Source of the DNA: Bacillota bacterium
GTDB lineage: Bacteria > Bacillota > Sulfobacillia > JACIYH01
DNA: 64,000 nucleotides
Assembly (NCBI GenBank): GCA_030019365.1
Contig: JASEFA010000001.1
Span: forward strand, 648,953 to 712,952
Reading direction: 5' to 3'
Part shown: piece after piece, positions 7,979 to 45,196 of the stretch
Position numbering within the stretch: position 1 is the stretch's first letter
Layout: every line of letters begins with the position of its first letter
Notes under the pieces: generated by a model
What the model saw: the letters and a program-made list of their open reading frames with translations, nothing else
Told to the model about the DNA's origin: nothing
The model's database searches: none
Translations under genes and position numbers: made by a program

Positions 7979-8404
7979 TCAGATGAACAGAGTGATCTTG
8001 CCTTCCTTGGCCTGGTCCACGAACTCGCCCACGCCCACCACGTCGTCCACGATAGGGTCCAGGTCCTCCTTGGTGAGGCCGAACAGGTCCATGGTCATGG
8101 CACAGGCGTGCACCCGCACATCCCCCAGCTCCTTGGCCTGGCGCAGGGTGTCGTACCAGGAAGGGACCTTCTTCTCCTGCAGGATCTGCATCATGGCCCC
8201 GGCCTGGTCCTCGAAGTCCTTGCTCACCCGGGCCAGCCGGGCGGGGCTCCCCTGCCGGAGTGCCTGCAGGCCCCAGAAGGTGACGAAGATATCAACCTCC
8301 ATGCCCATGGCCACCGCACCCGATGCCATGATGGCCACGGGAAACAGCTTATCCACCGTCCCCGAGAACACCACCATGGAAAACCGCTCCTCCGCCACTT
8401 CCAT
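7979..8404 (-). CDS. DsrE-like sulfur-relay protein
   Basis: 141 residues starting at ATG 8404 (GTG 8398 is possible); the longer frame upstream covers the promoter and operator. It is of the DsrE/DsrF/DsrH-like family ([33 protein letters not shown]), with the sulfur-carrying Cys101 in [12 protein letters not shown]. Such proteins pair with TusA in sulfur trafficking. It is first in the operon DsrE-TusA-SQR-ArsR, just downstream of a sigma-A promoter and a 12-bp palindrome. Confidence 0.87.
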
Positions 8405-8425
8405 CCCTCCCCTGCTTACTTGCCA

Positions 8426-8437
8426 ACTTGCGCAAGT
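8426..8437. promoter_or_regulatory. Candidate ArsR operator: ACTTGCGCAAGT
   Basis: A perfect 12-bp palindrome located about 10-21 bases after the predicted transcription start of the DsrE-TusA-SQR-ArsR operon. Repressors of the ArsR family bind dyads placed on or just after the promoter, and the operon encodes one, so autoregulation is likely. Confidence 0.55.
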
Positions 8438-8453
8438 GGCCGCTTTTGCGAGT

Positions 8454-8482
8454 ATGCTACCATGTTCACAGGAGGAAGTCAA
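8454..8482 (-). promoter_or_regulatory. Sigma-A promoter of the DsrE-TusA-SQR-ArsR operon
   Basis: On the minus strand TTGACT (8482-8477), 17 bases, then TAGCAT (8459-8454). It precedes the DsrE-like start by 50 bases. Confidence 0.75.
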
Positions 8483-8541
8483 TCCCTCTTGTGCTGCTTC
8501 TCACAAGACCCCACCAGGCCCGTCGTGGAGCCACCGGCACG

Positions 8542-9717: not shown

Positions 9718-9783
9718 CCCGCCCTAGTTTGCACCGGGGCGGGGATCGTCAGTTAGGGCTGGCTCCCCACCCGCGTTCGGGGC

Positions 9784-9897
9784 GGGGAGTTCACGCTTCC
9801 CCCACGCCTGCGGCTTCGGGTGGAGAGCTCAGGCTTCCTCCACACCTGCGGCTCCAGGCGGGGCCCTCAGGCTTCCTCCACACCGGCCGCCTGCAGC
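9784..9897. repeat. Three tandem copies of a 38-bp unit overlapping a gene 3' end
   Basis: The element TCA(C/G)GCTTCC(C/T)CCACxCC recurs at 9791, 9829 and 9867, exactly 38 bases apart. The right-hand copy contains the stop codon and last codons of the disulfide oxidoreductase gene, so the array looks like repeated duplication of that gene's 3' end. Confidence 0.8.
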
Positions 9898-10547
9898 ACG
9901 TAGCTCAGGAACATCTTCTCGGGAACTGCACCTTCGAACTGGACGCGCTCGTTGATCACCACCTTGGGAACCCCGAACACGTGGTAACGCTGGGCCAGGT
10001 GGGGGAACTCGGACACCTCCACCACATCGGCCCGCACCTTTTCGCTCTCCAGCGCCATCTTGTGGGCCAACCTGGCCGCACGCGGGCAGTATGGGCAGGT
10101 AGGGGTGACGAAAACCTGGATGTGGACGTCCCTGGGCAGCCCCTGGAGGGCTTCCGCGGTCTCGGGGCGGAGGCCGCTCTTTTCCGCGGACACGTCCAGG
10201 ATGTCTTCCACCAGGGACGCGAACTCGTACCCGGCCGGGATGCCGTAGTATCGCATGCCGTAGTCCCGGTCCCCCAGCACAACCACGGCCGGAATCCTGC
10301 TGATGCCGTATCGGGCGACCTGGTCCTTGTCCAGCAGGAAGTCGTAAACCTCGACCCCGATGCGGCCGTCGGAGACCTCGCCCAGGTCTTCCACCAGCAT
10401 GCGGGTCTCGCGACAGTAGGCGCACTCCTGGCCGGGAACGCTCAAACCCGACTCCGACTGGGTGAACATCACCAGCTTCGCCGGTCCGGTGAGCTCGGCG
10501 AAGCGCCGGCGGAGCGTGGCCGCGTCTCGTTCACTGATGAGCCGCAT
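9867..10547 (-). CDS. Protein disulfide oxidoreductase, two-thioredoxin-fold (PDO/glutaredoxin-like)
   Basis: 226 residues with two thioredoxin-like halves. The first has the active site CAYC (Cys42-Cys45) and the cis-Pro segment SRIPAVVVLG. The second has CPYC (Cys151-Cys154) and FGVPKVVINE. This matches the PDO family of thermophiles, which catalyses cytoplasmic disulfide exchange, usually reduced by a thioredoxin reductase. Its place before SQR-like genes suggests it handles persulfide or thiol stress. A good sigma-A promoter lies just upstream. Confidence 0.88.
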   Translation of the reverse strand: MRLISERDAATLRRRFAELTGPAKLVMFTQSESGLSVPGQECAYCRETRMLVEDLGEVSDGRIGVEVYDFLLDKDQVARYGISRIPAVVVLGDRDYGMRYYGIPAGYEFASLVEDILDVSAEKSGLRPETAEALQGLPRDVHIQVFVTPTCPYCPRAARLAHKMALESEKVRADVVEVSEFPHLAQRYHVFGVPKVVINERVQFEGAVPEKMFLSYVLQAAGVEEA

Positions 10548-10570
10548 CCTGCCATCACCTCCTGCGGCTT

Positions 10571-10599
10571 ATTATGCCACCGCAGGACCATCCCGTCAA
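10571..10599 (-). promoter_or_regulatory. Sigma-A promoter of the disulfide oxidoreductase gene
   Basis: Minus strand: TTGACG (10599-10594), a 17-base spacer, CATAAT (10576-10571), 24 bases before the ATG at 10547. The RBS CAGGAGGTG is present. Confidence 0.72.
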
Positions 10600-10756
10600 A
10601 AGTGCCGCCGCCCGCCGTGCCAGTCCACCGTGCACCGCAGACCCGCCGTCGGGTCCGGGGTCCGCCCGCCGGCCGCGCAGGAAATGGCAGCATCCCCGGA
10701 AGGAGAGCGACAGCCGGGCGGATAAGGTACTGCAGGCTGAAACGCCACGGGAAGGT

Positions 10757-12619
10757 GTGAGAACGCTTTTGCACAAACGACGGATTCTTCTCTGGCTGCC
10801 CGTCCTGGTTGTGCTGGCGGGCGCTGCGGGCGCGGGGGTGCTGGCCTGGCAGCGGGGACTGCTGCTGGGGCCCCGGCTGGAGGGAGAAGGCCCGCTGTTC
10901 ACGTCCTTCGCCTCGGACCTGATTCACCTCTTCCGGCGCGGGGATCTCCCCCCGGAGCTGCAGGGATACCGGGAGCTGGCCACCGCCCTGGCACGCTGGC
11001 CGGCAGGACGACCACAGGTGGAACGTCTGGCCCAACGCGGCGATGGGGTCGGGTACCAGGCCTGCCTGGTGCTGGCCCGCAGCCGGTCGGCACGTCACGA
11101 TGGTAGCGCAGTGGCCCATTACCTGCGCGCCCTGCACCTGCGGCCCGACCCCGGAGTACGGGAAGAGCTGGCCCGGCTGCTCGAAGACCGGGGACGCCCG
11201 GGAGCCGCCATCGATCAGTGGAAGGAGATGCTTCCTGCCCGCACGGCTGTAGAAGCCCTGCTCCGCCTGGAACCCGAGGCGTGGCAGGTGGCCGCATGGC
11301 TGAACGACCGGGGCTGGGCTGATCAAGCTCTGGACATCCTCCGGGAACGGGGCGGGGCGACGCAGGCTCGCGCTGACGCACGGGTGGCACGGGAATGGGG
11401 TCGCGCCCTGCTCACCCTCGGGGATGCCCGCGCGGCCCTGCCCTGGCTGGCCCGCTACCTCGCCGAATTCCCGCAGGATACCCAAACCCTGGGCCTCTAC
11501 GCCCGCGCCCTGGAAGGAGCGGGCAAGCTGGAGGCAGCGCGGGAGGCTTACCAGCGCCTGGGGCCGGCGGGGGCCCGCGGCCTGGGTCGGGTCCTGGAGC
11601 GCCAGGGGAGGAGAGGGGAGGCGGCCCGAGCCTACCTGGACTCCCCGGAAGCCGAGGCCCGCTGGCGGGGAGCATGCCTGCTGGAAGAGCAGGGGCATGC
11701 CTCCCAGGCCCTGGCCGTGTACCGCCAACTGGCAACGGAAAGGAGCCTCGTGCGCGACGATGCTGCCCTGCGGGGATACGTCCTCTCCCGGCGACGTGGC
11801 GACGCCGCCGGTGCCGGGGAGTTTCTCGCGGCCGTGTCGCCCGGCCTGGCCTGGTGTGCCGGGCTGCCCGTCGCCCATCCCCTGCCCTATGAGCCCGTGC
11901 CGGACCCCGGGCAGGAGCCTGCCGCGGCGCAGGCGGCCCGCGCCCTGCCGGGTGTGGGGCCGGGGGGAACGTCCCTCGCCCAGGTGGAGATGGAAATACT
12001 GGGGCACACGGGCGGTGCGACCGGCCGGCTGGCCCTGGCCCGGTGGTACTCCGAACGGGGTAACGTGACCCTGGCCGCGGAAACGGCCATGGCCGCTCTC
12101 AAGGACCTGCCGGCACCGGGGGCGTACCCGCTGGCGTACCCCCTCCCCTACGCCGGCCTGGTGGAAGAGGTGGGCGCGGAATTCGGCGTCGATCCCCTCC
12201 TGGTCTGGGCGGTGATGCGGGAAGAGAGCCATTTTGCGCCCTGGGCCGTATCCCGGGCCGGAGCGTGCGGCCTGATGCAGCTCATGCCCGCCACCGCCGC
12301 CGGCGCCGCCCGGGCCCTGGGACTAACCATCGACCGGGAAGACCTGTTCCGGCCCGAAGTCAACCTGCGCCTGGGCACCTGGTACCTGGCACGCCTGCTG
12401 GAGGCGTGCGGTCACGATATCCCGCAGGCGCTGGCGGCATACAACGGCGGGCTGGGGAACGTGCGCCGGTGGGCCGGCTCACCCACCTTCCGGGGGCGGG
12501 AAGGGTTTCCCACCGCCATCACCTTTTCGGAGACGCGCGAGTACGTGGCCAGGACGGCTCAATCCTACCTGGTCTACCAGTATCTGTACGGCGAGGGCGC
12601 TCCTGCCGGAGGGCGGTAA
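10757..12619 (+). CDS. Membrane-anchored TPR/lytic transglycosylase (Slt70-like)
   Basis: About 620 residues. An N-terminal signal anchor (RILLWLPVLVVLAGAAGAGVL) is followed by a long helical TPR-like region (about residues 60-430). A C-terminal Slt domain carries the catalytic Glu in AVMREESHFAPWAVSRAGA, the GLMQLMPATA motif, YLARLLEACGHD and ALAAYNGGLGNVRRW. It cleaves peptidoglycan glycan strands outside the membrane. The start is uncertain: GTG 10757 is in frame just after GGGAAGGT, and TTG 10769 has better spacing. Further upstream the frame is non-coding and overlaps the opposing promoter. Confidence 0.85.
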   Translation: MRTLLHKRRILLWLPVLVVLAGAAGAGVLAWQRGLLLGPRLEGEGPLFTSFASDLIHLFRRGDLPPELQGYRELATALARWPAGRPQVERLAQRGDGVGYQACLVLARSRSARHDGSAVAHYLRALHLRPDPGVREELARLLEDRGRPGAAIDQWKEMLPARTAVEALLRLEPEAWQVAAWLNDRGWADQALDILRERGGATQARADARVAREWGRALLTLGDARAALPWLARYLAEFPQDTQTLGLYARALEGAGKLEAAREAYQRLGPAGARGLGRVLERQGRRGEAARAYLDSPEAEARWRGACLLEEQGHASQALAVYRQLATERSLVRDDAALRGYVLSRRRGDAAGAGEFLAAVSPGLAWCAGLPVAHPLPYEPVPDPGQEPAAAQAARALPGVGPGGTSLAQVEMEILGHTGGATGRLALARWYSERGNVTLAAETAMAALKDLPAPGAYPLAYPLPYAGLVEEVGAEFGVDPLLVWAVMREESHFAPWAVSRAGACGLMQLMPATAAGAARALGLTIDREDLFRPEVNLRLGTWYLARLLEACGHDIPQALAAYNGGLGNVRRWAGSPTFRGREGFPTAITFSETREYVARTAQSYLVYQYLYGEGAPAGGR

Positions 12620-31621: not shown

Positions 31622-33235
31622 ATGAGGATGGAGGGCGGGTCGCGCTGGCGCCGGGCATGGCATAGGATGAGGGCGTTCCTGGCCAGGGCGGCACTGCTGC
31701 CCCTGGCTCCCCTGCTGGGGTGGGGCCCTTTCACGCACATCGAGGTTGCCCGCCTGGCCTGGCGCAAGGTACGGACATGCCCGGACCTGGCGGCCAACGA
31801 CCTGGCCGAGCGCCTGCAGGGCCACGAAGAGACCTTCGCCCGCGCCTCCGCCTCGGCCGACGCCATTTCCGCCCACCACGTGCTCAGGCGCTGCCCCCTC
31901 TATGACTACATGCACAACTGGATACCGGACAACGCCCACGGCCTGCCGCGATTCGGATACGCCCTGGTGCAGCAGTGTCTGCACGGTCCCCCGGCCGACC
32001 TGGCCGTGGCATGCGGGTGGCTGGCCCACCAGATGGCGGACTGGTGGGCCCACTACGCCCCCATCGCCCGGGACGGCACCCCGGCGGGCAACGCCGGCAA
32101 TCCCGGACTTTTCTCCGGATATGCCAACTCGTTCCGGGTGATCGGTACGGACTTCTACCCGGAAATCCTCGAACACTACCGGGTGCTCGACCACGCCCTG
32201 CTGGAGCTGCTCTACGACCTCCTGGTGCTCTACCAGCCCGAGGGCGACAGCCTGCGAGGCGAGCGCCCGGCTCTCTTCGCCCCCGAAGGGGAGAACCCCC
32301 TCACCCGCACCTCCGAACGCTGGGCGGCCCGGTTGCCCCGCGTCCCGCCTGCTGTGCTGGGGGAGATGGTGGAGGAATTCGGCCTGGTGATGCAAGGGCT
32401 GGTCACCCTATACTCCCTGCTACGCCCCTTCCGGCCGGTGCTTGGGGAGCGCGTCGATCGCCTCATCTCCTTCCGCCAGGTGGGGGCGTCCTACCTGGAA
32501 CGCTGCGCCGACAAGATCGTGCAGGGGGTGTTCGGGGTCAGCGGGGAGGAAATCGCCCAGTGGGCCTCCCCGGACGTGCTCGCCCCAAAAACCGAACCAC
32601 CTTACGCCGTCCGTATCTGGCCCATCCCCCGGGGACTGTATCCCGGGACTCCCCTGCTGGAGCTGGCCGGCTGGCTGGGCAACCTGCAAAGCGAGGTGGA
32701 CACCTCTTTCCTGCCCCGTCTCGTCGAGCTGGCAAGAGGAGAGCCCGCCGGACCTCGCACCCTGGGCCTGGCCTTCCTCCTGGGCCTGACCACCGTTCCA
32801 TCGACCACCGCCTCACCTGAGGAAGACCGCCTGCCGGCGTGGCTGTATCGCCTGATGCCGCCTGCCATTTCTCTGGCAGGGGTATCGCCCCCCCGGGTCG
32901 AGGCCGGGCTGGTCGAAGCCATCAGGGCACGGGAACTGGTAGTAACGTTCGTTCCCGCGGCCCGGACGGACGAGGACCCCACCGATGGCTCCAAGGCCCT
33001 GGACCCCACCAGCCTGCAGCTAGTCTTCAACGGATACGATATGGACCTGTATCCGGAATACTTCCGGGTGGAAAAGCACTTCCACGAGGGCAAGATCGTC
33101 TGGCATTGCCGCCTGCTGCAAGCGGTCGAGGAAGGCTATCACCAGGTGTGGGCGACCGGCCGGGATCGTTCCGGTATCGCCACCCTGCCCTTCCATTACG
33201 TGGTGGATCTCAGTGCGCGGCCCCCGTCGCCATGA
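31622..33235 (+). CDS. Zinc-dependent phospholipase C-like protein
   Basis: 537 residues (ATG 31622, or ATG 31628 with better RBS spacing). Motifs of the Zn-dependent PLC/S1-P1 nuclease helical fold are present: an N-terminal WGPFTHIEVARLAW, AISAHHVLR, LYDYMHNWIPDNAHG and GWLAHQMADWWAHYAPIARD, supplying His/Asp ligands. A hydrophobic N-terminal stretch (AFLARAALLPLAPLLG) may be a signal. The last 110 residues are a beta-rich domain (SLQLVFNGYDMDLYPEYFRV). It may hydrolyse phospholipid outside the cell; the substrate is not proven. Confidence 0.7.
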   Translation: MRMEGGSRWRRAWHRMRAFLARAALLPLAPLLGWGPFTHIEVARLAWRKVRTCPDLAANDLAERLQGHEETFARASASADAISAHHVLRRCPLYDYMHNWIPDNAHGLPRFGYALVQQCLHGPPADLAVACGWLAHQMADWWAHYAPIARDGTPAGNAGNPGLFSGYANSFRVIGTDFYPEILEHYRVLDHALLELLYDLLVLYQPEGDSLRGERPALFAPEGENPLTRTSERWAARLPRVPPAVLGEMVEEFGLVMQGLVTLYSLLRPFRPVLGERVDRLISFRQVGASYLERCADKIVQGVFGVSGEEIAQWASPDVLAPKTEPPYAVRIWPIPRGLYPGTPLLELAGWLGNLQSEVDTSFLPRLVELARGEPAGPRTLGLAFLLGLTTVPSTTASPEEDRLPAWLYRLMPPAISLAGVSPPRVEAGLVEAIRARELVVTFVPAARTDEDPTDGSKALDPTSLQLVFNGYDMDLYPEYFRVEKHFHEGKIVWHCRLLQAVEEGYHQVWATGRDRSGIATLPFHYVVDLSARPPSP

Positions 33236-33278
33236 GACAGGAGGACTTCCGCCGGGGAACGCCGGTTGCCGCAGATGC

Positions 33279-34928
33279 TCAGGGCAGCGAATCGAGCTGG
33301 GACGCGATGACATCCCATACGCCGGGCTTCTCGAATCCGCGCCGCCAGGAAGCCAGCCCGGCCAGACGGTAACGGGCCGCCAGTCTGACCCGTGCCAGCA
33401 CGGAGCGCTCGTTCTCCAGCCACACCTGGTAGGCGACCCCGTCCTCCTCCCAGCGGGCATGGTCCTGGCCGGTGGCGGGGTCAAAGCGGGGGACCACCCC
33501 CCTCTCCGCCAGGAGAGCTTCCACTTCGGCCATGCCCAGGGCGCGCGAGGTCAGCCTGTACCCCCCACCGGGCTGCCGCTCCACCTTCCACAGGCGCGTG
33601 TAGAAGGGGATGCCCAGCAGCAGCTTGCCCGGCGGGACCTCCTCCAGGAGATCGCGGATACCCTTCTCGACCCAGGGCAGGGAGGCCACCGACCCCGCCC
33701 GGGCGGAGCCGGCGTAATGCTCATCGTAAGTCATCACCGCCAGGTAGTCGGCGACCCGGGCCAGGGCCCGGCGGTCGAGGAACCCCGACCAGGTGGGGCT
33801 GGGGGACTTCACCGTTACATCCACCGACACCACCAGGCCCTCCGGGTGGGCGAGCCGGCCCAGCTCCTCCACGAACCGGACGAAAAGCTGCTTCTCGGAA
33901 GGGTACACGTTCTCGAAATCCACGTTGATCCCGTCCAGGGCAAAGAGGCGGCAGTAGAAGAGCAATTGCCTGATCAGGTGGTTCCGTGCTCGCTCCTCCT
34001 GGAGCACCTGGCGGGTGAGGTCTGGATCGAAGTCGTTGCCCACCAGCACCCAGACGGCGTATCCCCGTCCGTGCGCCCACCTCACATAGGAGGCGTTACA
34101 GCCCGAAGAGAGGGAACCGTCCTCCCCCTTGAGGTACAGCCAGGTGGGGCACACCACATTCACGCCGGGGAGAGGACCGATGCTGTCCAGGTCGGGACCG
34201 CCCGGACGGGTGACGTGCTCCCAGGTGAGGCACACCGGGCCACCCGCCCGCACCGGTGCCGGCCGGGGGGGCCGGCCCACCCGGTGCACTCCCGCCCCCT
34301 CCACCCTCCCCGCCGGGACGTAGCCGGTGACCCCCTCTTCGGTGCGCACCAGCAACCACCTGCCCACGCGGTCGTAGACGAAGAGAGTGCTTCCGGCCGG
34401 CACGGTGGGGCCCGGCCACAGGGGCCATGGTCGGGCCCGGATGCGCACGTCCGCCAGGGCCCGCACCCGGGGGATCTCCCGCTCGGCCCGGTCGATGAGC
34501 AGGCGCGAACCCGCCACCTGCACCACGATGCCGTACATCTCCTGGAGGGCCTCGATGGGCACCCGGCCCTCGGGAGCGTAGAACTCGATCGACACGGGCG
34601 CGGCCTGGAGGAATTCGGTGGCCTGGGGAGAGGCCATGTCCAGTCGCCAGGGCGAGGTGGAGGTCTGTGCCCTGTCGCCTTCCATGAGGCGGATGGCAGG
34701 GTCAAAGTGCTCCCGCACCACCTGCACGGGGAGCCACACTACCCCCCGCCCATCGACCCGCGCCCAACCAATGCGGCGCGCCCCCAGGATGGCCTCCAGC
34801 CGCCCGGGGACCGCCGGCCGCTCCCCGCCCCCACGGGTTGCCAGGGGCGTGATCAGCCGCACGGTCAGCACCGCCAGGGCGGCGAGCACCAGCAGCAGGA
34901 CGGTGAGGGAACGCAGGGCCGGCCTCAT
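33279..34928 (-). CDS. GH18-family protein with SH3-like domain (spore germination/YaaH type)
   Basis: 549 residues. An N-terminal membrane anchor (LTVLLLVLAALAVLTVRL) is followed by a copper-amine-oxidase-like/SH3-like region (residues about 60-215, including VRIRARPWPLWPGPTVPAG). A GH18 catalytic domain holds the motif DGINVDFENV near residues 327-336 (DxxDxDxE) and MTYDEHYAGS, and ends in LAGLASWRRGFEK. It resembles the cortex or wall glycoside hydrolases of Firmicutes. It faces the PLC-like gene convergently. Confidence 0.88.
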   Translation of the reverse strand: MRPALRSLTVLLLVLAALAVLTVRLITPLATRGGGERPAVPGRLEAILGARRIGWARVDGRGVVWLPVQVVREHFDPAIRLMEGDRAQTSTSPWRLDMASPQATEFLQAAPVSIEFYAPEGRVPIEALQEMYGIVVQVAGSRLLIDRAEREIPRVRALADVRIRARPWPLWPGPTVPAGSTLFVYDRVGRWLLVRTEEGVTGYVPAGRVEGAGVHRVGRPPRPAPVRAGGPVCLTWEHVTRPGGPDLDSIGPLPGVNVVCPTWLYLKGEDGSLSSGCNASYVRWAHGRGYAVWVLVGNDFDPDLTRQVLQEERARNHLIRQLLFYCRLFALDGINVDFENVYPSEKQLFVRFVEELGRLAHPEGLVVSVDVTVKSPSPTWSGFLDRRALARVADYLAVMTYDEHYAGSARAGSVASLPWVEKGIRDLLEEVPPGKLLLGIPFYTRLWKVERQPGGGYRLTSRALGMAEVEALLAERGVVPRFDPATGQDHARWEEDGVAYQVWLENERSVLARVRLAARYRLAGLASWRRGFEKPGVWDVIASQLDSLP

Positions 34929-35031
34929 CTACAGCTTCTCCCGCCAAAAGCTATGGTCTAACCCGGTTCTCCATTCGGCGCCCGGCCCGGGGTTCCCCCC
35001 CCGGCCGCCTTTGCCACTTTCTGCTTACCGA

Positions 35032-36264
35032 CTACCGGCCGGTTCCTCCCTCTGCGACCAGGTGCCTCCACCCCGAGCGCAGGAGCAGGACACACACGCC
35101 CAGAAGCAGTCCACCCGCGTGGAAGGGGGCGGCCAGACCCATCCCCTGGCCCACCGCCCCGCCCACCAGGGGGCCCAGCACCGAACCCAGGTATATAAAC
35201 GAATTGAGGACCCCGAAGGCCCGGCCCCGGGATTCCCGGCCCACGCTGCGGGCGATGAGGGTGTTGCCGGCTACGGTGACACCCGCGTTCCCCAGCCCGA
35301 AGAAGAAGCGGAGCACACCCAGGCCCGCGGGCCCGTGGGGCAGGGCCTGCAGGGCGCTGAACAGGGCGGATACCAGCAGGCTGAGCAAGAGCAGCGTGCG
35401 GTACCGCAGCCAGCCCAGTCGCACCGCCAGGGGTGAGCCCACCACGGTGGCGATCCCCACCACCGAGAACACGATTCCGGTCACCACCTCGGCCCGCTCG
35501 GGCACCATGGCCTCGATCCACAGGGGCAGGGTGGGCTGGGTGACCAGCACAGCCGCCTGGGCCAGCCCCAGCACCGTGAACAGCACCCGCAGGGAGGGCT
35601 CGGCCAGGGCACCCCGCACGTCTCCCATGATACTGGAAGCCACCCGGCAGGAGGGCCTCTCTTCGCGCACAGCGATCACCGGAAAGAGGGTGGCCAGCAC
35701 GAGGAGGAAAGCGGTCACCACCATGCTGGTGCGAATGCCCACCAGCTCGGCCATGATGCCGCCCAGGAGGGGTCCGGTGATGCCGCCCGCCGCGCCGATG
35801 GCCTGCACCACCCCCAGCGAAAGGGCCAGCTGCTCTTCGGGACACGTGCAGGAGACCAGCATGACGGCGGCCGGGATGAACCCCGAGACCAGCCCGTTGG
35901 CCAGACGGACGACCAGGAGCTGTATGGGATCGGTCACCAGGGCCGTGAGCAGGTACGTGATGGCCATCCCCACGCCGGCCCGCACGATCATGGGTCTCTT
36001 CCCATACCGGTCGGCCAGAGACCCCCACACCGGGGCCATCACCCCAGCGGCCAGGAAGGTCACGGAATACGCCAGGCCGGACCACAGGGAGGTGCCGTTC
36101 CTGACCCCCAGCTCCCGCAGGAACATGGGCAGAAAGGGGATGACCAGGGAAAAGGCCACCTGGGCCAGGAAGACGCCCCCCGCCACCAGGATGAGGCTGC
36201 GGCGCCAGGCCCGGGGGGTCATGCCCGGGCCGGGCAGGTTCGGGGCGGGTGCCGTCACGCCCAC
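35032..36264 (-). CDS. MFS efflux transporter
   Basis: 410 residues with about 12 transmembrane helices and the MFS signature GSLADRYGKRPMIVRAG between helices 2 and 3. The central loop is short, and SVGRESRGRAFGVLNS lies in the second half. It belongs with the multidrug/tetracycline-type exporters (DHA1). The GTG start 36264 overlaps the phosphohexomutase stop by 10 bases. It is last of the long leftward series from proC; the exported compound is unknown. Confidence 0.85.
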   Translation of the reverse strand: MGVTAPAPNLPGPGMTPRAWRRSLILVAGGVFLAQVAFSLVIPFLPMFLRELGVRNGTSLWSGLAYSVTFLAAGVMAPVWGSLADRYGKRPMIVRAGVGMAITYLLTALVTDPIQLLVVRLANGLVSGFIPAAVMLVSCTCPEEQLALSLGVVQAIGAAGGITGPLLGGIMAELVGIRTSMVVTAFLLVLATLFPVIAVREERPSCRVASSIMGDVRGALAEPSLRVLFTVLGLAQAAVLVTQPTLPLWIEAMVPERAEVVTGIVFSVVGIATVVGSPLAVRLGWLRYRTLLLLSLLVSALFSALQALPHGPAGLGVLRFFFGLGNAGVTVAGNTLIARSVGRESRGRAFGVLNSFIYLGSVLGPLVGGAVGQGMGLAAPFHAGGLLLGVCVLLLRSGWRHLVAEGGTGR

Positions 36265-37724
36265 CGAAAATCTTCCACTTCGGGGTAACGGGAGAGGGCT
36301 ACCTTCATGGTCCGGCAGATGCGGTCCAGGCCCGCGGGGGTGGTGGCCTCGCAGCGGGCCACCAGGGCGGGCTGGGTGTTGGAAGCCCGCACCAGTCCCC
36401 AGCCGTCCGGGAAGATGACCCGGGCCCCGTCCACGTCTATGACCTGGTGGGTCTGCCGAAAGCGCTCCACCAGGTCGCTTACCACGCCGAACTTGGCCGC
36501 GTCCGGACAGGGGATGCGCGTTTCGGCAGTGCAGCAGTACCGGGGTACGTCCGCCAGCAACTCGTGCAGGGCCCGATCGCTGCGGGAAAGGATGCGCAGG
36601 AGCCTCCCGGTGGCGTAGAGGGCGTCATCGAACCCGAAGTACTCGTCGGCGAAGAACATGTGCCCGGACATCTCCCCGGTGAACACGGCCCCGATCTCCT
36701 TCATGCGCGCCTTGATGAGGGAGTGGCCCGTGCGGGAAAACACGGGCTTGCCCCCCAGCCGCTCGATCTCCTCCACCAGGGCCCGCGAGCACTTGACCTC
36801 TACCAGAGCCGTGGCCCCCGGATAGCGGGGAAGGATCTCGCGCCAGAACAGGATCATGAGCGTGTCGCCCCAAACGATGGAGCCATCCCCCGCCACGACC
36901 CCCAGGCGGTCGCCGTCACCGTCATATGCCACTCCCAGATCGGCTCCCGACTCCCGCACGGTGTGGATGAGGTCCACCAGGTTGCCGGGCTGGATGGGGT
37001 CGGGGTGATGATGGGGAAAGCTGGGGTCAGACTCGCAGTATAAGGGGATCACCTCGCACCCCCAGGCCCGCAGGGCCCGGGGAGCGAAGTGGCTCATGGT
37101 GCCGTTGCCGCAGTCCACCACCACCCTGAGACGGCGCGGCCCCAGGGCGATCTTCTCCTTCAGCATCTCCAGGTAGGAGGAAACCACATCCCGCTCTTCC
37201 CGTCCACCGGTCGCGGGCTCCTGCCTCCGGGCCACCAGAGGGGTCACGGTGGCCCCGGTAGAGGCAGGGTCGGCATCGGCGCCCATAGTCGGGGCCGCCG
37301 CGCCCGTCGTCAGGCTCTCTGCCAGGCGGCGCACCCGCTGGATGTCTTCCCCGTATATGGTGGCGTGACCCTGGGCCAGCTTGAACCCGTTGAACTCGGG
37401 CGGGTTGTGGCTGGCGGTCACCATCACGCCCCCGTCAATGCCGTACAGGACGCGTGCGTAGTAGAAGACAGGCGTGCTCACCTCTCCGACGTCCACCACG
37501 TCCCGTCCCCCGGCCATTAGACCTTCCTGCACGGCCCGGCTCAGTTCGGGCGAGGAAAGGCGGTTGTCCCTGCCCACCACCACCGGACCCGGGCTCCTCT
37601 CCTCATCCAGGAAACGGGCGTAGGCCCGTCCCAGGAGAAAGACCCCCCCGGCATCCAGGTCCCGGCCCACCACCCCCCTCAGGTCATACTCCCGGAATAT
37701 GTCCGTCGCCAGCCTCATCACCAT
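36255..37724 (-). CDS. Phosphomannomutase/phosphoglucomutase
   Basis: 489 residues (ATG 37724, or ATG 37718 at better RBS distance). It has the active-site phosphoserine loop VMVTASHNPPEFNGFK, the metal loop AYDGDGDRLGVV, sugar-binding GEMSGHMFFADEYFGFDDA and the phosphate-binding C-terminal RASNTQPALVARCEA. It interconverts hexose-1- and hexose-6-phosphates for surface glycans. An insertion of about 40 residues (near 140-180, Ala/Thr-rich) is unusual for the family. Confidence 0.92.
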   Translation of the reverse strand: MVMRLATDIFREYDLRGVVGRDLDAGGVFLLGRAYARFLDEERSPGPVVVGRDNRLSSPELSRAVQEGLMAGGRDVVDVGEVSTPVFYYARVLYGIDGGVMVTASHNPPEFNGFKLAQGHATIYGEDIQRVRRLAESLTTGAAAPTMGADADPASTGATVTPLVARRQEPATGGREERDVVSSYLEMLKEKIALGPRRLRVVVDCGNGTMSHFAPRALRAWGCEVIPLYCESDPSFPHHHPDPIQPGNLVDLIHTVRESGADLGVAYDGDGDRLGVVAGDGSIVWGDTLMILFWREILPRYPGATALVEVKCSRALVEEIERLGGKPVFSRTGHSLIKARMKEIGAVFTGEMSGHMFFADEYFGFDDALYATGRLLRILSRSDRALHELLADVPRYCCTAETRIPCPDAAKFGVVSDLVERFRQTHQVIDVDGARVIFPDGWGLVRASNTQPALVARCEATTPAGLDRICRTMKVALSRYPEVEDFRWA

Positions 37725-37797
37725 ACCCCCCGGATAACACCCGCTCTTTCCGGCCCCTGATGTTGCGCAGCTCCCGCCGCCCCGAGACGCCGCCCGA

Positions 37798-39114
37798 TCA
37801 CCGCCTCCTGCGGACGCCGCTCAGGCGGTAGGCCCACCTTCCCAGGCGATACGCCAGAGCCACCCGCCAGTCGGCAAAGGCATACCGGTAGTCCAGGTAA
37901 TCGCCTCTGAGCCGGCTGCGAGCGCGCAACTCCTCTTCGACGGGAGTGCCCGGGTACACCTCCAGCCGGTTGAGCACGTCCATGCGGCTGTTGAACGCCC
38001 GGGACAGGATGCCCGTGCGGGCCAGGAAGGCCAGATTCTCCTCCAGCTCCCCCAGGGTGGTACCGTGGTCGAAGAGGATGAAGCCGGGCACGGCCTCCAG
38101 GCCCAGCTCTTCCAGGACACACAGGGCCCGCAGGTTGTCGGCCACCGTGATCCCTTTGCTCATCCTGTCCAGGGCCGCCTGCACCCCCGACTCCATGCCC
38201 AGGAACACCCGCCGCAGACCCACCTGCCCCAGGCGGCGAAAAAGCCCGGGCTCCACATCTTCCGGCCGGGCGGAAACCATGAACTCTACCCGCCAGGGCT
38301 GTTTCTCCAGAAGATCGGCAAAGGAAAAGGCCCGCTGGCGGCCCTTCTCCCCCGGACCCACCCAGTTGTCGTCCACGAAGTTCACCTGTCCCACCCCGTG
38401 GTCGCGCACCAGGCGGCCGAGCTCCTCCACCACGTTCTCCGGGCTCCGCCCCCTCCACCGAGGTCCCCGCCCCAGTCCGTAAAACGCCGCGATGGCGCAA
38501 AAACCACAGCGGGCCCAGCACCCACGAGAGGAGTAGACGGCGGCCGGCTCCCCCCGGGCCAGCACGGCCGGAAGCAGATCCCGGTCCGGAAGGGGAAGGC
38601 CATCCACGTCCACCAGGGCCCGGCCGGGGGCGAGCGCCGGGGAACCGTCGGCGTCCCGGCGGGCAACCCCCGGGATCTCCAGCGCCGCCGGATCGCCGTC
38701 CCGTAACCGATCCACGAGTTCGGCAAAGGTCGCCTCTCCCTCGCCCACCACCACCATGTCCACCCCGGCGGCCTGGCCCAGAAACTCCCGGTAGGCCAGG
38801 CTGGGGGTGTACCCTCCTGCCACCACCAGGCCGCGGTACCCACCCCGGCGCAAGAGAACGGCCAGACGGATACCCTCGCGCACCATGCGGGGTAACACCA
38901 GGGACAGCCCGATCAGCCCGGGCCGCTCCGCCAGGAGCTGGCGGGCCAGACGCGCGGTATCCCACCCCAGCAGGGTGGCATCATACACCCCTACCTGGTG
39001 CCCGCGCTGGCGGAGCACGGCCGCCAGGTACTCCACGCCCAGGGCCTCACCGGCGTCCTCCCGGAAAAGCCGGCGCCGCCGGGGCGGCACCACCAGTGCT
39101 ACATCAGCTGGCAA
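37798..39114 (-). CDS. B12-binding-domain radical SAM protein
   Basis: 438 residues from TTG 39114, overlapping the ornithine carbamoyltransferase stop by 11 bases. The N-terminal cobalamin-binding-like domain (about 1-150) has GVEYLAAVLRQRGHQVGVYD and VVVAGGYTPSLA. The radical SAM core has YSSRGCWARCGFC (CxxxCxxC) and VNFVDDNWVG. The chemistry is unknown; relatives methylate or rearrange lipids, tetrapyrroles or natural products. It sits inside the proC-led operon. Confidence 0.88.
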   Translation of the reverse strand: MPADVALVVPPRRRRLFREDAGEALGVEYLAAVLRQRGHQVGVYDATLLGWDTARLARQLLAERPGLIGLSLVLPRMVREGIRLAVLLRRGGYRGLVVAGGYTPSLAYREFLGQAAGVDMVVVGEGEATFAELVDRLRDGDPAALEIPGVARRDADGSPALAPGRALVDVDGLPLPDRDLLPAVLARGEPAAVYSSRGCWARCGFCAIAAFYGLGRGPRWRGRSPENVVEELGRLVRDHGVGQVNFVDDNWVGPGEKGRQRAFSFADLLEKQPWRVEFMVSARPEDVEPGLFRRLGQVGLRRVFLGMESGVQAALDRMSKGITVADNLRALCVLEELGLEAVPGFILFDHGTTLGELEENLAFLARTGILSRAFNSRMDVLNRLEVYPGTPVEEELRARSRLRGDYLDYRYAFADWRVALAYRLGRWAYRLSGVRRRR

Positions 39115-40114
39115 GGTTGGTCACCAGATCCCCCACCGGGGCGGGCACCTCCGCCGGTTCCACGTCCACCCCCAGCAGCGCTACCAGCAGGGCCTTCTGA
39201 AAATGCATGCGGTTCTCCGCCTGGTCGAAGATGATGGACTGGGGGCCGTCCATGACTTCGTCGGTAGCCTCCAGGCCGCGCGCCGCCGGCAGGCAGTGCA
39301 TGAAGCGGGCGGTGGGTTTGGCCTTCTTCATCAGGGCGGCGTTCACCTGGTACGGGGCCATGGCCTTCTTGCGCGCCTCCGCCTCGTCCTCCTGGCCCAC
39401 CCACCACCACAGGTCGGTGTACACGAAGTCGGCGTCCCGTACCGCCTCGACCGGGTCGCTCAGGAACTCGGTCCGGGCCCGCGACTCCCTGCTGTTCTGC
39501 CGGGCCAGCTCCCGGATGTCCGGACGCACCGTGTACCCGGGCGGGTTGGCCACGGCCAGGTCGATCCCCAGCTTGCTACAGGTGACCACCAGGGCGTTGC
39601 ACACGTTGGTAGCATCGCCCAAAAAAGCGAGCTTGACCCCCTCCAGCTTACCCATGGCTTCGCGGATGGTAAAGGCATCGGACATGGTCTGCACCGGGTG
39701 GTAGAGGTCAGTCAGGCCGTTGATCACCGGTACCGTGCTCCCCTGGGCCAGCTCCACCAAAGTGGTGTGCCTGTACAGCCGCGCCATGATCCCGTGGACA
39801 TAGCGGCTCATCACCCGGGCGGTGTCGCCCACGGTCTCGCGTGCCCCCAGGTGGATCTCCCCCGGCTTCAGGTACAGCGTGGTGCCGCCCAGGTCGGACA
39901 TCCCCACCTCGAAGGACATGCGCGTCCGGGTGGATGGTTCCTCAAAGAGCAGCGCCAGGTGCTTGCCCCGCAGGAGGGGCGTGGGCACCCCCCGGCGCCA
40001 GATGTCTTTGATGGCCGCCGCCAGGTCGAGCAGGGCCACCAGCTCCTGGGGACTGTAATCCTGGTCGGTCAGGAAGTCCCTGCCCCGCAGAGTGCGCAGA
40101 AGCTGCCAATCCAC
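39104..40114 (-). CDS. Ornithine carbamoyltransferase
   Basis: 336 residues from GTG 40114 after GGGAGGGG. It has carbamoyl-phosphate binding EEPSTRTRMSFEVGM, ornithine-binding features and the catalytic FMHCLPAARG near residue 270. It catalyses ornithine + carbamoyl phosphate = citrulline + phosphate. Downstream of an arginine-deiminase-like gene it probably works in the catabolic direction (ArcB role), releasing ornithine and carbamoyl phosphate. No carbamate kinase is seen. Related paralogs use putrescine or other amines, so specificity is inferred. Confidence 0.87.
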   Translation of the reverse strand: MDWQLLRTLRGRDFLTDQDYSPQELVALLDLAAAIKDIWRRGVPTPLLRGKHLALLFEEPSTRTRMSFEVGMSDLGGTTLYLKPGEIHLGARETVGDTARVMSRYVHGIMARLYRHTTLVELAQGSTVPVINGLTDLYHPVQTMSDAFTIREAMGKLEGVKLAFLGDATNVCNALVVTCSKLGIDLAVANPPGYTVRPDIRELARQNSRESRARTEFLSDPVEAVRDADFVYTDLWWWVGQEDEAEARKKAMAPYQVNAALMKKAKPTARFMHCLPAARGLEATDEVMDGPQSIIFDQAENRMHFQKALLVALLGVDVEPAEVPAPVGDLVTNLAS

Positions 40115-40230
40115 CAGTACCCCTCCCGTCTCGCTGTGTACTCCGTCTCCAGCGGGACTACCCCCTCCGGCCCGTAGCCCCGGCGGCCCCGCCCTGCGGT
40201 CCCCCGGCCCAGGCGGTGGGTGCCCCCGCT

Positions 40231-41163
40231 TCAGCGTACGTCCTCCCGCCAGCGGTACAGCGGAAAGGTCATGCACCGGGGTCCTCCCGCCCCCTTGAGC
40301 AACTCGGGCATCACGAAGGGCATGACCTCTACTCCCCGCTTCTCCAGTTCTTTGCGCGTCTGAAGATTCCTGGTCTCCCCATCCACGAAGATCACCTTGC
40401 GCGGGCCCACACACAGCCAGTTGCTGGCCAGGGTGGGATACTCCTCGGGCGGGATGCTGATGACCTCGTACCCCCTGCGCTCCACGAAATCCAGGAATTC
40501 CTCCGGGAGCGCCGGGAGGTACGCGGCGGCAATCCCCTCGCCGGCGACGTTGAACACCGTGTCCAGGTGCATCACCTCCCGGTGCAGGGGCACGGGGATG
40601 ACCCGATCCACCATGGTGCCCTCCATCACCCGCTGGATCTGGCGGAACCCCTCCCGGTTGGTGCGGTAGCTCTGCCCCACCAGCAGCGTCTTCTCGTCCA
40701 GGTAGATGATGTCCCCGCCCTCCATACGGCCCTGTCCGTAAACGCGGGCCACCACGGGGATGCCCAGGTGGACCAGCCGTCTCACCACGAACTCCTCTTC
40801 GCCCTGCCGGGGGAAATCGCAGTAAGCGATGAATGCCCCATACGGCGTCATGAAGCCGTGGTCCCGGGTGAACCACTCGTTGACGGGGACTCTGGTTTTG
40901 GGCTCCCAGTCGTCCAGGTAGTACACCTCGGCCCCCGCCCGCCGCAAGTAGTCCGCCATGGTGTCGTGCTCGCCCTGGGCTCGCCCCAGGTCCGGCTTGG
41001 CGTCACATATCCACCTCCAGGGGTAGCGCTCGTCCATCTCTTCCACTTCTTCCCCCGGACGGTGCACCAGCACTCCCGCCAGGTACCCGGTCTCGCTGCG
41101 CAGGCCGAAGGGTGCCGGCCGCTCCGGGCCCGCAATGGGACTCCGCTCTCCCAACCCCATCAC
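40231..41163 (-). CDS. Arginine deiminase-like guanidino-group hydrolase
   Basis: 310 residues (tandem ATG at 41163 and 41160). The amidinotransferase-fold catalytic set is present: EGGD in RMEGGDIIYLDE, HxD in VMHLDTVF near residue 199, and the nucleophile Cys in GAGGPRCMTF near residue 296. It is shorter than classical arginine deiminase (about 400 residues) and lacks that enzyme's extra helical domain, so it could hydrolyse arginine, methylarginine or another guanidine. Next to ornithine carbamoyltransferase, an arginine-to-citrulline role is most likely. Confidence 0.82.
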   Translation of the reverse strand: MMGLGERSPIAGPERPAPFGLRSETGYLAGVLVHRPGEEVEEMDERYPWRWICDAKPDLGRAQGEHDTMADYLRRAGAEVYYLDDWEPKTRVPVNEWFTRDHGFMTPYGAFIAYCDFPRQGEEEFVVRRLVHLGIPVVARVYGQGRMEGGDIIYLDEKTLLVGQSYRTNREGFRQIQRVMEGTMVDRVIPVPLHREVMHLDTVFNVAGEGIAAAYLPALPEEFLDFVERRGYEVISIPPEEYPTLASNWLCVGPRKVIFVDGETRNLQTRKELEKRGVEVMPFVMPELLKGAGGPRCMTFPLYRWREDVR

Positions 41164-41230
41164 CGTCCTCCGTATGTATTGCCGCCTCTATTATCTGATC
41201 GGGGGCATCTCCGTACACCCGCACTGATGC

Positions 41231-42214
41231 TCAGATCTGGAAGCCGGCCGGGAAAGGATCATCCTCCTTGACCACCAGGTGGGTTATGCCCATGAGGAAA
41301 GATCGGGCCGTCACCTCCGGCACCACCTGCCCACCCGGGCGCACTTCCCGGGCGCGGGCCCGGAAGGCCAGCCCCAGGATGCTCTCGTGCACCACCTCCG
41401 CCGCTCGCCCCACCTCCCCCGCACGCCCCAGCTCCCCCCTGGCCAGGAGCAGGGCCAGCCGGGCTGAAATCCCCGTCCCCGACGGGGTACGGCCCATGGT
41501 GGCTGGGGCGTAAAAATTGGCTACCCGGAAGCGCGCGGGTCCGGGAAGGCGCTCCCCCACCGTCACCAGGTCAACCTGGCGGCCCTCCACCTGCACCGAC
41601 CGGGCCGCCTCCCAGAGAGCGGTTCCCATATCCAGGAGATGCGCGCGCGGTTGCCGGTCGAGAGGGACCAGGTCCACCGCCCCGGCGTCGACGAAGGCGT
41701 ACGCCAGCCCTCCGTATGCCACCTCCGCTGCCACCGTCCGCCCGCCTGCCCGCAGCTGGGCAGGGCCCAGGTAGTACGAGGGGACGTTGGCGACGGTCAC
41801 CTCCATCACCTCGCCGCCCGTCACCCGCACGCGGGCGTCCACCGGCCCGACCACGGTGTCCAGCCGCACCTCGAACTCGCCCTCCCGGGAAGGCACCATG
41901 CCGCTGTCGACCAGGGCGGTGACCGCGCTGAACGTACTGTCGCCACACATGTCGAAGTACCCGCCCGGGTGGAGGAAGATCACCCCGGCGTGGGCATCCG
42001 GCCTCACGGGGGGCAGCACCACCGCCCCCAGCATGTTGGTGTGCCCGCGCGGCTCCGCGCACACGATGCTCCGCACCCAGTCCAGGTGCTGGCGGAAGAA
42101 AGCCTGCCGGGCGGCCATGTCGGCCCCGGGTACGAACGGTAACCCCGCCAGGACCACCCGGGTGGCCTGGCCGTGGTGATAGTCCATGCAGTAGAGCAGG
42201 TGCCTGGCCCGCAC
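41231..42214 (-). CDS. Proline-racemase-family enzyme with Cys/Ser active site (candidate hydroxyproline dehydratase)
   Basis: 327 residues from GTG 42214. Family features are MDYHHGQATRVVLAGLP, LHPGGYFDMCGDSTF and MGRTPSGTGISARLALL. The first catalytic Cys is kept (Cys90), but the usual CGH is CGD; the second catalytic Cys is replaced by Ser245. True racemases and epimerases use Cys/Cys, while trans-3-hydroxyproline dehydratases have a non-Cys residue (typically Thr) at the second site. A dehydratase giving pyrroline-2-carboxylate is therefore more likely than racemisation. It is co-directional with proC, 87 bases downstream. Confidence 0.82.
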   Translation of the reverse strand: MRARHLLYCMDYHHGQATRVVLAGLPFVPGADMAARQAFFRQHLDWVRSIVCAEPRGHTNMLGAVVLPPVRPDAHAGVIFLHPGGYFDMCGDSTFSAVTALVDSGMVPSREGEFEVRLDTVVGPVDARVRVTGGEVMEVTVANVPSYYLGPAQLRAGGRTVAAEVAYGGLAYAFVDAGAVDLVPLDRQPRAHLLDMGTALWEAARSVQVEGRQVDLVTVGERLPGPARFRVANFYAPATMGRTPSGTGISARLALLLARGELGRAGEVGRAAEVVHESILGLAFRARAREVRPGGQVVPEVTARSFLMGITHLVVKEDDPFPAGFQI

Positions 42215-42301
42215 CCCATCACCCCCGCCCGCTATTTTGCCAGAGCAGGGGGCGCTTTTCCAGTGTCCGCGGGGCCGCCGGCCGGTACCCGTGCCGCGCG
42301 G

Positions 42302-43174
42302 TCAGGCGCCCGCGCTCTCCAGCAGCCTCCTGCCCCGCTGGGGAGGAACGAGTTCCTGCCCCATCTCGCGCGACCTGGCCGTAGCCCGCCTCACCGCTTC
42401 CCGGAGGGCAGCCACGAAGCCCATCTCCTCCAGCACCTTGAGGGCAGCCATGGTGGTGCCATTGGGCGAAGTGACCTTCCGGCGGAGCAGGGCGGGATCC
42501 TCCCCCGTCTCCAGAACCATGCGGGCGGCACCCAGCACCGTCTGCCGGGTGAGGAGGCGGCTCACCTCTGGGCTCAACCCCACTTCCACCCCCGCCTCGG
42601 CGAGGGCTTCCATGAGGAGGTACACGTAGGCGGGCCCGCTGCCGCTCAACCCGGTCACCGCGTCCAGCCACTCTTCCGGCACGGTCACCACCTCTCCCAC
42701 AGCGGCGAAGATGGTGCGGGCCACCTCTTGGTGCTCCTCCCGGGCCCACCGCCCCCGGGCGACGGCCGTGGCCGATTCCTTCACGTGACAGGAGGTGTTG
42801 GGCATGGCCCTGATCACCGGGATACCCTCACCCAGGCTCTCCTCCACCAGGCCACAGGGGATGCCGGCCACCACCGACAGCACCAGGTGGCGGGGACTCA
42901 CCAGACCCCTCAGCTGTCCGAGGGCGGCGGGGATATCCGCCGGCTTGGTGGCCAGCACCACCACATCTGCCGACGCGCACACCTCCGCCTTGCTCCGGGT
43001 GGTGCGCACTCCCCAGCGCAACGCCATGGCATCCAGCCGATCCTGGCGAGAGCGATTGGTGACCACGATGCTGGGGGCAAACGTCACCCCCGCCGTCAGC
43101 AATCCGGCCACCATGGCCTCGGCCATGGAGCCCGCTCCGATGAAACCCATCCGCCGCCACTTTTCCGGCAACAT
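42302..43174 (-). CDS. proC: Pyrroline-5-carboxylate reductase
   Basis: 290 residues from ATG 43174 after GGGGGTGAAAAGG. The NAD(P)-binding GFIGAGSMAEAMVAGLL is near the N-terminus, followed by RAMPNTSCHVKESATA and the C-terminal signature DAVTGLSGSGPAYVYLLMEA with GAARMVLETGEDPALLRRKV. It makes L-proline from P5C, the last biosynthetic step. It is preceded by a proline T-box leader, so expression rises when tRNA-Pro is uncharged. It is first of a long co-directional series. Confidence 0.94.
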   Translation of the reverse strand: MLPEKWRRMGFIGAGSMAEAMVAGLLTAGVTFAPSIVVTNRSRQDRLDAMALRWGVRTTRSKAEVCASADVVVLATKPADIPAALGQLRGLVSPRHLVLSVVAGIPCGLVEESLGEGIPVIRAMPNTSCHVKESATAVARGRWAREEHQEVARTIFAAVGEVVTVPEEWLDAVTGLSGSGPAYVYLLMEALAEAGVEVGLSPEVSRLLTRQTVLGAARMVLETGEDPALLRRKVTSPNGTTMAALKVLEEMGFVAALREAVRRATARSREMGQELVPPQRGRRLLESAGA

Positions 43175-43200
43175 CCTTTTCACCCCCGCAGTTCTCCGGG

Positions 43201-43470
43201 AAACGAAAATCCCTTCCGCCCCAAGGGCGAAAGGGATGCTTCCGCGGTACCACCTTGCTTGGTCCCTCTGCAGGACCCGCTCCACCCGGCACAACCGGAC
43301 GCGGAGCCCGGTGATGCCTGCCCCTTCTAACGGAGGGATGCGGCCGGCTCCTCGCCAGCAGCTCCGGGGCGGGTTCGAACCGGCACGACCGCCCGCCTTG
43401 CAGCCAGGGGCGGGCTCTCTGCGGGGTCGGCTGGGGTCCTACTGCTCCCCTTCACAGCCCGATGCTGCTT
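43201..43470 (-). ncRNA. T-box leader, specific for tRNA-Pro, upstream of proC
   Basis: Read on the minus strand: the T-box AAGGTGGTACCGCG at 43256-43243, then a 13-bp terminator stem (43237-43209, one G-U pair, 3-base loop) followed by TTTCGTTT. In Stem I an AGTA box (near 43443-43439) is followed by GGACC, which pairs with GGTTC just before GAA (43376-43374). The specifier position right after GAA reads CCC (43373-43371) or CCG, one base on; both are proline codons. AGAGAG and GCAAGG distal-loop motifs are also visible. The layout follows known T-box leaders and predicts anti-termination by uncharged tRNA-Pro. Confidence 0.9.
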
Positions 43471-43476
43471 TGCCGC

Positions 43477-43505
43477 ATTGTATCGCGCTCTCCCCTCCCT
43501 GTCAA
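43477..43505 (-). promoter_or_regulatory. Sigma-A promoter of the T-box/proC operon
   Basis: Minus strand: TTGACA (43505-43500), a 17-base spacer, TACAAT (43482-43477), an almost perfect consensus placed just before the T-box leader. Confidence 0.9.
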
Positions 43506-43624
43506 TACGTACGTGCGTCCGCTGCGCGTGCCCGAGTCAATGGCGGCCTCGCCCCCGTGCGTGGCGGACGCAGCATGAAGGGGGCCGGGGAAGCCATAAG
43601 CATAGAGGGTGCGGGGGAACCATC

Positions 43625-45196
43625 GTGGACGAGCACCGCGAGGGCACCGGCGCCCTGTTTGCCGCGCACACGAGCGCCCGGGTGGTGGACTTTCTCTACC
43701 GGATCCTCATCGTGCGGGCGGCCGGCGCGGCGGCCGTGGGGGCGCTGGGCGTGATCGGCTCGCTGTACGGCCTGCTGGTGACGGTGGCCAGTGCCGGCAT
43801 CCCGGCGGCCGTTACCAACCTGACGGCCGAAAAGACGGCCCGGGGCGACCGGGCCGGCCTGGAGCGCACCCTCTCCCTGTCCTTCCTGATCACGGGGGGG
43901 TTGGGGGTGCTGCTGGGCGCCGGGCTGATGGCCACCAGCCGGCCGGCTGCCCGCCTGCTCTTCCACGACCCCTCCCTCCACCTGCCCATCCTGGCTCTGG
44001 CGCCGGCGGTGGCCATCGTGCCGGTCTCCGGTGTCTACCGGGCCTACCTCCAGGGCCGTTACTTCACCTACCCGACCGCCCGCGCCCGTCTGGTGGAAGC
44101 CCTGGCGCAGACGGCGTTCGGGCTCTCCGCCCTGACCCTGGCCGGACCCCTGCCCCTGGCGGCCGCCACCACCATCCTGGCCTGCGCCATCACCGGGGGG
44201 GAAGCAGCGGGCCTGCTCTCCGTGTACGCCTCCTTCCAGCGGGTCCACGCACAACCCTCACCGGTGCGGCGAGAGGGCGTGGCCAGGAGGGCAGGCGCCA
44301 GGGCGCCTCTCCGGAAGGAGCAGCTGCCCGGAAGTAACGCTCATGCAGCGCGGCTCCGGGATGACCTGGGGACCATGGCCCGCTTCGCCTGGGCCTCCAC
44401 CAGCGTGAGGCTAGTGGCCATGGCATCCGGCGCCATCAGCGCGGCCATGATCCCCGCCCTGCTGCGGGCGGCCGGCCACGCACCCGACCGGGCCCTGGCC
44501 CTGTACGGGCAGTTCGGAGGCATGGCGGCACAGATCGCCTTCTTCCCCGCCACCCTGGTGTGGGCCTTCACCTTCAACCTCACGCCCGGTCTCTCTGCCT
44601 GCCGCAGCCGGGGTGACACCCGTAGTGCCCCCCGCCTGGTGGAAGACTCCCTCTATCAGGCCTGGATGCTGGCCCTTCCCGCCGCCGCGTGCACCTTCCT
44701 GCTGGCGGAGCCGCTGTGCCGTTTCGCCTTCGGCACCGGGGAACCCGCCCTGCTCCTCATCATCCTCTCGGCAGTGGCACCCCTGGTCACCGTCGACCAG
44801 GTGATGACCGCCTCCCTGCACGGCTGGTCCGAACCGGGCCTGGCCTTCCGCAACTTCGCTGTGGGCGAAGTCATCAACCTGGGCCTCACCTACCTGCTGG
44901 TTCCCCGGTTGGGGCTGCCAGGGGCAGCGGTGGCCATCGGGGCCGGTACCCTGATCGAGGCCCTGTGGGACTGGCAGACCGTGGCCCGCCTGCTGGGGCG
45001 CCCGCCCTCCCTCCGCCGGCCGGCCGCGCGAGCCGGCCTTCCCGCCGCCCTGTCCGGCCTGGCGGCCTACCTGGCGCACCGGGCGGCTGTCCCCACCCTG
45101 GGCAACGCCGCCGCCACCCTGCTGGCCCTCGCCACCGCCACCCTGGTGGTAGTGGCCCTCGTCCGTCTCGCCCGCGATACCCGCCGCAGGCCTTGA
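43625..45196 (+). CDS. Polysaccharide/lipid flippase (SpoVB/MurJ-like, MOP superfamily)
   Basis: 523 residues from GTG 43625 (GCGGGGGAACCATC upstream). About 14 membrane helices are present, with the family's FLYRILIVRAAGAAAVGALG start, LGAGLMATSRPAARLLF, IVPVSGVYRAYLQGRYFTYP and LVPRLGLPGAAVAIGAGTLIE. A hydrophilic loop of about 45 residues (near 200-245) joins the halves. The SpoVB group flips lipid-linked glycan precursors and is common in spore formers. It is divergent from the proC leader. Confidence 0.85.
   Translation: MDEHREGTGALFAAHTSARVVDFLYRILIVRAAGAAAVGALGVIGSLYGLLVTVASAGIPAAVTNLTAEKTARGDRAGLERTLSLSFLITGGLGVLLGAGLMATSRPAARLLFHDPSLHLPILALAPAVAIVPVSGVYRAYLQGRYFTYPTARARLVEALAQTAFGLSALTLAGPLPLAAATTILACAITGGEAAGLLSVYASFQRVHAQPSPVRREGVARRAGARAPLRKEQLPGSNAHAARLRDDLGTMARFAWASTSVRLVAMASGAISAAMIPALLRAAGHAPDRALALYGQFGGMAAQIAFFPATLVWAFTFNLTPGLSACRSRGDTRSAPRLVEDSLYQAWMLALPAAACTFLLAEPLCRFAFGTGEPALLLIILSAVAPLVTVDQVMTASLHGWSEPGLAFRNFAVGEVINLGLTYLLVPRLGLPGAAVAIGAGTLIEALWDWQTVARLLGRPPSLRRPAARAGLPAALSGLAAYLAHRAAVPTLGNAAATLLALATATLVVVALVRLARDTRRRP

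Follow-up and report, generated by a model that had tools for sequence, protein, structure and literature searches.

The window analysed here is a stretch of 64,000 nucleotides. On its minus strand lies a run of genes that all point in the same direction, headed by proC and preceded by a promoter and a leader (Table 1). The gaps among proC, the proline-racemase-superfamily (PRS) gene, the deiminase gene and the carbamoyltransferase (CTase) gene are about 70-120 bp, and further downstream the genes overlap. The first-pass annotation had described this co-directional set with short gaps or overlaps, and it was found as listed. Its gene labels stand as well, except that 'ornithine carbamoyltransferase' is a family-level label with which the substrate loop of the protein disagrees. 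The radical SAM, phosphohexomutase, MFS and GH18 genes have no evident connection to proline.

Table 1 Features of the operon, with positions in the window.
Feature	Position	Strand	Evidence
Sigma-A type promoter TTGACA-17-TACAAT	43477..43505	minus	11/12 matches; core invariant in G001 and G002
T-box leader, specifier CCC (Pro)	43220..43464	minus	RF00230, 67.7 bits, E 2.4e-14
Intrinsic terminator of the leader, overlaps antiterminator	43209..43237	minus	13-bp stem and T run
proC, pyrroline-5-carboxylate reductase (P5C reductase), ProI type	42302..43192	minus	TIGR00112 277.9 bits, cut-off 196.75
PRS member, divergent clade	41231..42214	minus	PF05544 237 bits, motifs, tree
Short arginine-deiminase-like hydrolase, 310 aa	40231..41163	minus	PF02274 114.6 bits
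OTC/PTC-like CTase, WWVG replacing SMG loop	39104..40114	minus	TIGR00658 386.3 bits, TIGR04384 378.1 bits
B12-binding radical SAM protein	37798..39114	minus	Family matches; relic only in G002
Phosphohexomutase, no evident proline link	36255..37724	minus	Family matches; order kept in G001 and G002
MFS transporter, drug-efflux-like	35032..36264	minus	Family matches
GH18 protein, possible last gene	33279..34928	minus	Ends the unit in all three genomes

The mechanism of T-boxes is well established. An uncharged tRNA pairs with the specifier and with the antiterminator bulge, and the terminator is then read through. In a scan of 33200-43700, the promoter in Table 1 is the only promoter-like site. 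The Infernal match of the leader covers positions 1-219 of the RF00230 model. The Rfam gathering score for this model is 93, which means that a default scan misses the proline leader. The T-boxes before trpE, pheS, thrS, alaS and valS of the same genome, several of them beyond doubt, also score below 93. There are 13 T-box matches in the genome.

The register of the specifier was calibrated on the same-genome T-boxes of leuS (CUC), trpE (UGG), valS (GUC) and metS (AUG). In these four, the specifier codon is found immediately 5' of GCCCC, and the codon at that position in the proC leader is CCC, for proline. Two other readings were tried and rejected. The arginine codon CGC, one base on, is out of the register set by the four calibration leaders. 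CCG, which assumes a one-base spacer after GAA, would also specify proline, but it is CCC that fits the register of the genome. The terminator segment has a folding energy of -35.1 kcal/mol, with a z of about -4.1. As judged from its sequence, the leader is a T-box, with a covariance-model match, a specifier that matches the pathway and a terminator that competes with the antiterminator. The promoter, the proline T-box and the terminator had all been proposed in the first-pass annotation and are borne out here, and the check that it suggested, a match to the Rfam model and a reading of the specifier, gives a codon of the CCN type.

Conservation was studied in three near-complete genomes of the genus (98-99% complete), being the source genome G000 and its relatives G001 and G002. 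The leader, the promoter core, the CCC specifier and the terminator are kept in both relatives, so that CCC is invariant across all three. In G001 the order is proC, PRS, CTase, radical SAM, phosphohexomutase, a MFS region that the gene finder did not resolve, and GH18. In G002 it is proC, PRS, deiminase, CTase, phosphohexomutase, MFS and GH18. The two missing genes have left traces. In G001, 50 bp of the deiminase gene survive as a collinear relic between PRS and CTase (86%, E 7e-12), and in G002 a 25-bp radical SAM relic, which scores above all 500 shuffles, sits between CTase and phosphohexomutase. It follows that the ancestor of the genus had the gene order of the window and that two genes were lost independently. 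A look for the same order in related genomes had been suggested, and this order is what was found, minus the two genes that survive only as relics. Deiminase homologues of the class, at about 40%, do not have other operon genes nearby. In G002 the PRS gene lies on two contigs with a 28-base overlap; where they meet, ahead of FRVANFYAP, it has about 25 apparently additional codons.

No proA was found in G000, G001 or G002, while the same search found ProA or relatives in 14 of 14 control genomes. This means that P5C does not come from glutamate via ProBA, and that ornithine is its likeliest source. The proline T-box operon itself is real, and it is conserved in a genus without detectable ProA.

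How ornithine would become P5C is a separate matter. None of the three genomes has an ornithine aminotransferase above the cut-off (best 333 versus 378), and there are some ten class III aminotransferase matches per genome. A true ornithine cyclodeaminase was considered and rejected, with OCD-family proteins scoring at most 141 versus the PRK07589 cut-off of 350. The aminotransferase at 19724 had been put forward as the supplier of this step. It passes the GABA-transaminase cut-off and fails the one for ornithine aminotransferase, so by cut-offs it is GABA-transaminase-like, and the proposal is not upheld.

Bacillus subtilis offers the closest comparison for both regulation and route. Its proBA and proI are under T-box control (PMC9245794), and the operon described here similarly has a tRNA-Pro T-box before a ProI-type P5C reductase. 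There, however, proBA is co-regulated, whereas in the present operon proC is followed by three other enzymes and the genome search gave no proA. In B. subtilis, ornithine can also bypass ProA into proline via RocD, so there too proline can be fed without ProA. But its rocDEF genes are under arginine/RocR control, and it takes a suppressor mutation to open the bypass (PMC9245794). In the genus studied here the putative arginine branch is under a proline T-box, and there is no RocD over the cut-off.

The deiminase keeps FTRD, MEGGD, HLD, GGPRCM, YRTN, NEW and FPRQGEE, which are active-site and arginine-binding motifs of arginine deiminase (ADI). By homology, we take the catalytic residues to be the Asp, Glu, His-x-Asp and Cys, and the others to bind the carboxylate of arginine. 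These residues support arginine as the probable substrate. The enzyme is not a full-length ArcA: it scores 116.3 on TIGR01078, versus a cut-off of 489.1, falls short of full length, and its 310 aa leave no room for the ADI helical domain.

The CTase passes TIGR00658 (cut-off 280.85) and fails TIGR04384, for putrescine carbamoyltransferase (cut-off 500). In the alignment it has WWVG where ornithine carbamoyltransferases (OTCs) have the ornithine-binding SMG loop and putrescine carbamoyltransferases (PTCs) have YGLY. It does retain the Asn and Asp positions of OTC. Other OTCs of the class that were aligned have SMG or GMG, and a canonical argF-like OTC with an SMG loop is present elsewhere in the source genome. 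A single further genome with a WWVG CTase was found, G034, at 70% identity. In the tree, this protein, the CTase of the window and those of G001 and G002 form a clade (support 100/98), which joins the putrescine carbamoyltransferases (94/89). With that loop and that grouping, the description as a plain OTC has to be given up. The protein represents a third type of ornithine/putrescine carbamoyltransferase, of unassigned specificity, that automatic annotation would probably misname.

In G034 the CTase gene comes after that of a long, divergent ADI-fold enzyme and before that of an amino-acid (APC) antiporter. In the genus, this long type is found only in G001 (63% identity to that of G034), which is the genome without the short deiminase; G000 and G002 are without the long type. 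So each of the genomes found with a WWVG CTase has one of the two deiminases, which is good evidence, if from just four genomes, that deiminase and CTase work together. The known arcAB and aguA, ptcA pathways likewise pair an ADI-fold enzyme with a carbamoyltransferase of the OTC/PTC family, and the G034 version shares the antiporter. The operon differs from them in its short deiminase, in its WWVG loop that is neither SMG nor YGLY, and in its proline T-box. A separate cluster, at G002:C8:6955-12559 and on G000:C17, combines an ADI-like gene of another subfamily with a second OTC-like gene, a PucR-type regulator and a class III aminotransferase match.

The interpretation that we put forward, with about even confidence, is that the operon answers proline starvation in a genus that lacks ProA, draws on arginine and ornithine and includes one unassigned enzyme. 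Uncharged tRNA-Pro would pair with CCC and the antiterminator bulge, and transcription would pass the leader terminator. The operon would then yield ProC, the arginine-deiminase-like enzyme and the non-standard CTase. Arginine would be converted to citrulline, and from there to ornithine (or, for this CTase, a related amine) and carbamoyl phosphate. Ornithine would be turned into P5C by the product of a gene at another locus, probably a class III aminotransferase, and ProC would reduce P5C to proline. The PRS enzyme may work at the alpha carbon of some compound that is neither plain proline nor hydroxyproline. The feed from arginine over ornithine to P5C had already been proposed. The lack of any proA found and the kept deiminase residues favour it, but given a CTase loop that is not that of OTC, the step from citrulline to ornithine is not assured.

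A less likely alternative is that deiminase and CTase are a catabolic unit that was relocated to a place downstream of proC; read-through from the T-box would then express it although it supplies no proline. It would be an analogue of ADI or agmatine deiminase systems and would release carbamoyl phosphate from arginine or a different guanidino compound. The G034 CTase gene and its neighbours, a divergent deiminase and the antiporter, are arranged like arc and agu clusters; in the tree the CTase falls with the PTCs; and unrelated genes continue downstream in the same direction. Against this, the module has been kept behind a proline T-box in three genomes, and without proA a supply of ornithine is relevant to proline.

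It is unlikely that the T-box serves proC alone, with the downstream genes having promoters of their own, or constitutive read-through plus regulation of their own. Non-consensus promoters could lie in the gaps of 70-120 bp. Yet the site scan of the stretch from proC to the CTase gene gave neither a second promoter-like site nor a terminator-like one, and the order is the same in the genus. The interval between proC and the PRS gene, where a strong terminator would have told against a joint operon, is part of this result.

Members of the PRS family use the catalytic pairs Cys/Cys, Ser/Cys, Cys/Thr or Ser/Thr, and coordinate the prolyl nitrogen with a His and an Asp (PMC4113996). The motifs here are DYHHGQ, MCGD (C90, D92) and TMGRTPSGTG (G241, S245). 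The pair is thus Cys/Ser (C90/S245), which matches none of these ProR, 4HypE or T3LHypD pairs, and the coordinating His and Asp are replaced by D92 and G241. None of the equivalog cut-offs for these enzymes is reached (190.9 versus 556, 175.3 versus 376, 163.9 versus 540, 122.7 versus 550).

Among the sequences examined, DYHHGQ, CGD and TMGRTPSGTG occur elsewhere only in proteins of a Thermomicrobium roseum plasmid and of Paenarthrobacter histidinolovorans. The resulting four-sequence clade has support 100/100 and a stem of 1.84 changes per site; with such long branches, its attachment point in the tree is uncertain. No further members were among the retrieved matches of 154 genomes of the class, 398 of the phylum and 297 of the order of Paenarthrobacter, nor in viral contigs, and a plasmid search gave only the T. 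roseum one. An enzyme of the ProR, 4HypE or T3LHypD kind, as full-length PF05544, the first catalytic Cys, the SGTG motif and the known Cys/Thr dehydratases (PMC4113996) might suggest, is highly improbable in view of the Ser, the lost His and Asp, the low scores and the rare separate clade. The same residues and clade tell against the proposed arm from 3-hydroxyproline to pyrroline-2-carboxylate, and they make a hydroxyproline role of the operon look unlikely.

On the T. roseum plasmid (11409-13032), the PRS-clade gene points away from the genes for DUF6917 and a TPP enzyme. Its Paenarthrobacter counterpart faces the genes of an FAD oxidase, of piperideine-6-carboxylate (P6C) dehydrogenase and of 2-oxoadipate dioxygenase, the latter two scoring above their cut-offs. 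By its gene content, this neighbourhood is a lysine/pipecolate-type cluster, and P5C/P6C chemistry would be the thread that it has in common with proC. The cluster, at 2414-12478, comprises P6C dehydrogenase, HglS, the FAD oxidase, the PRS-clade gene and a peptide-type ABC transporter. It is conceivable, if quite improbable, that the clade performs an undescribed step that supplies P5C or proline in organisms that lack all three of ProA, ornithine aminotransferase and ornithine cyclodeaminase. This could for example be a proton shift between 2-ene and 5-ene pyrroline carboxylate, or piperideine carboxylate in Paenarthrobacter. If true, tRNA-Pro would here control a route to proline that is new.

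A search of the literature library gave no paper that combines 'proline racemase' and 'T-box'. The operon links an arginine-type module with a sensor of tRNA-Pro, and does so in a lineage where ProA was not detected. Proline starvation is thereby a regulatory clue to an uncharacterised PRS branch, which automatic annotation would probably misname, and to a third CTase type. It also makes the question of how ProA-less bacteria make proline testable.

Some further observations concern other loci. Just before the window, G000:C1:632000-648953 holds DAO-type FAD oxidoreductases with a small protein of 2Fe-2S type and, near a Liv-type ABC transporter, a separate OCD-family gene. In G002, a canonical Cys/Cys racemase is found near its OCD gene. 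A T-box at G000:C10:32231-32537, with an apparent Trp specifier UGG, precedes a gene for a Liv-type ABC substrate-binding protein, which suggests a tryptophan transporter. Finally, a short T-box aptamer with an apparent Ser specifier, UCC, is located upstream of an mtnA-like gene at G000:C11:34595-34735.
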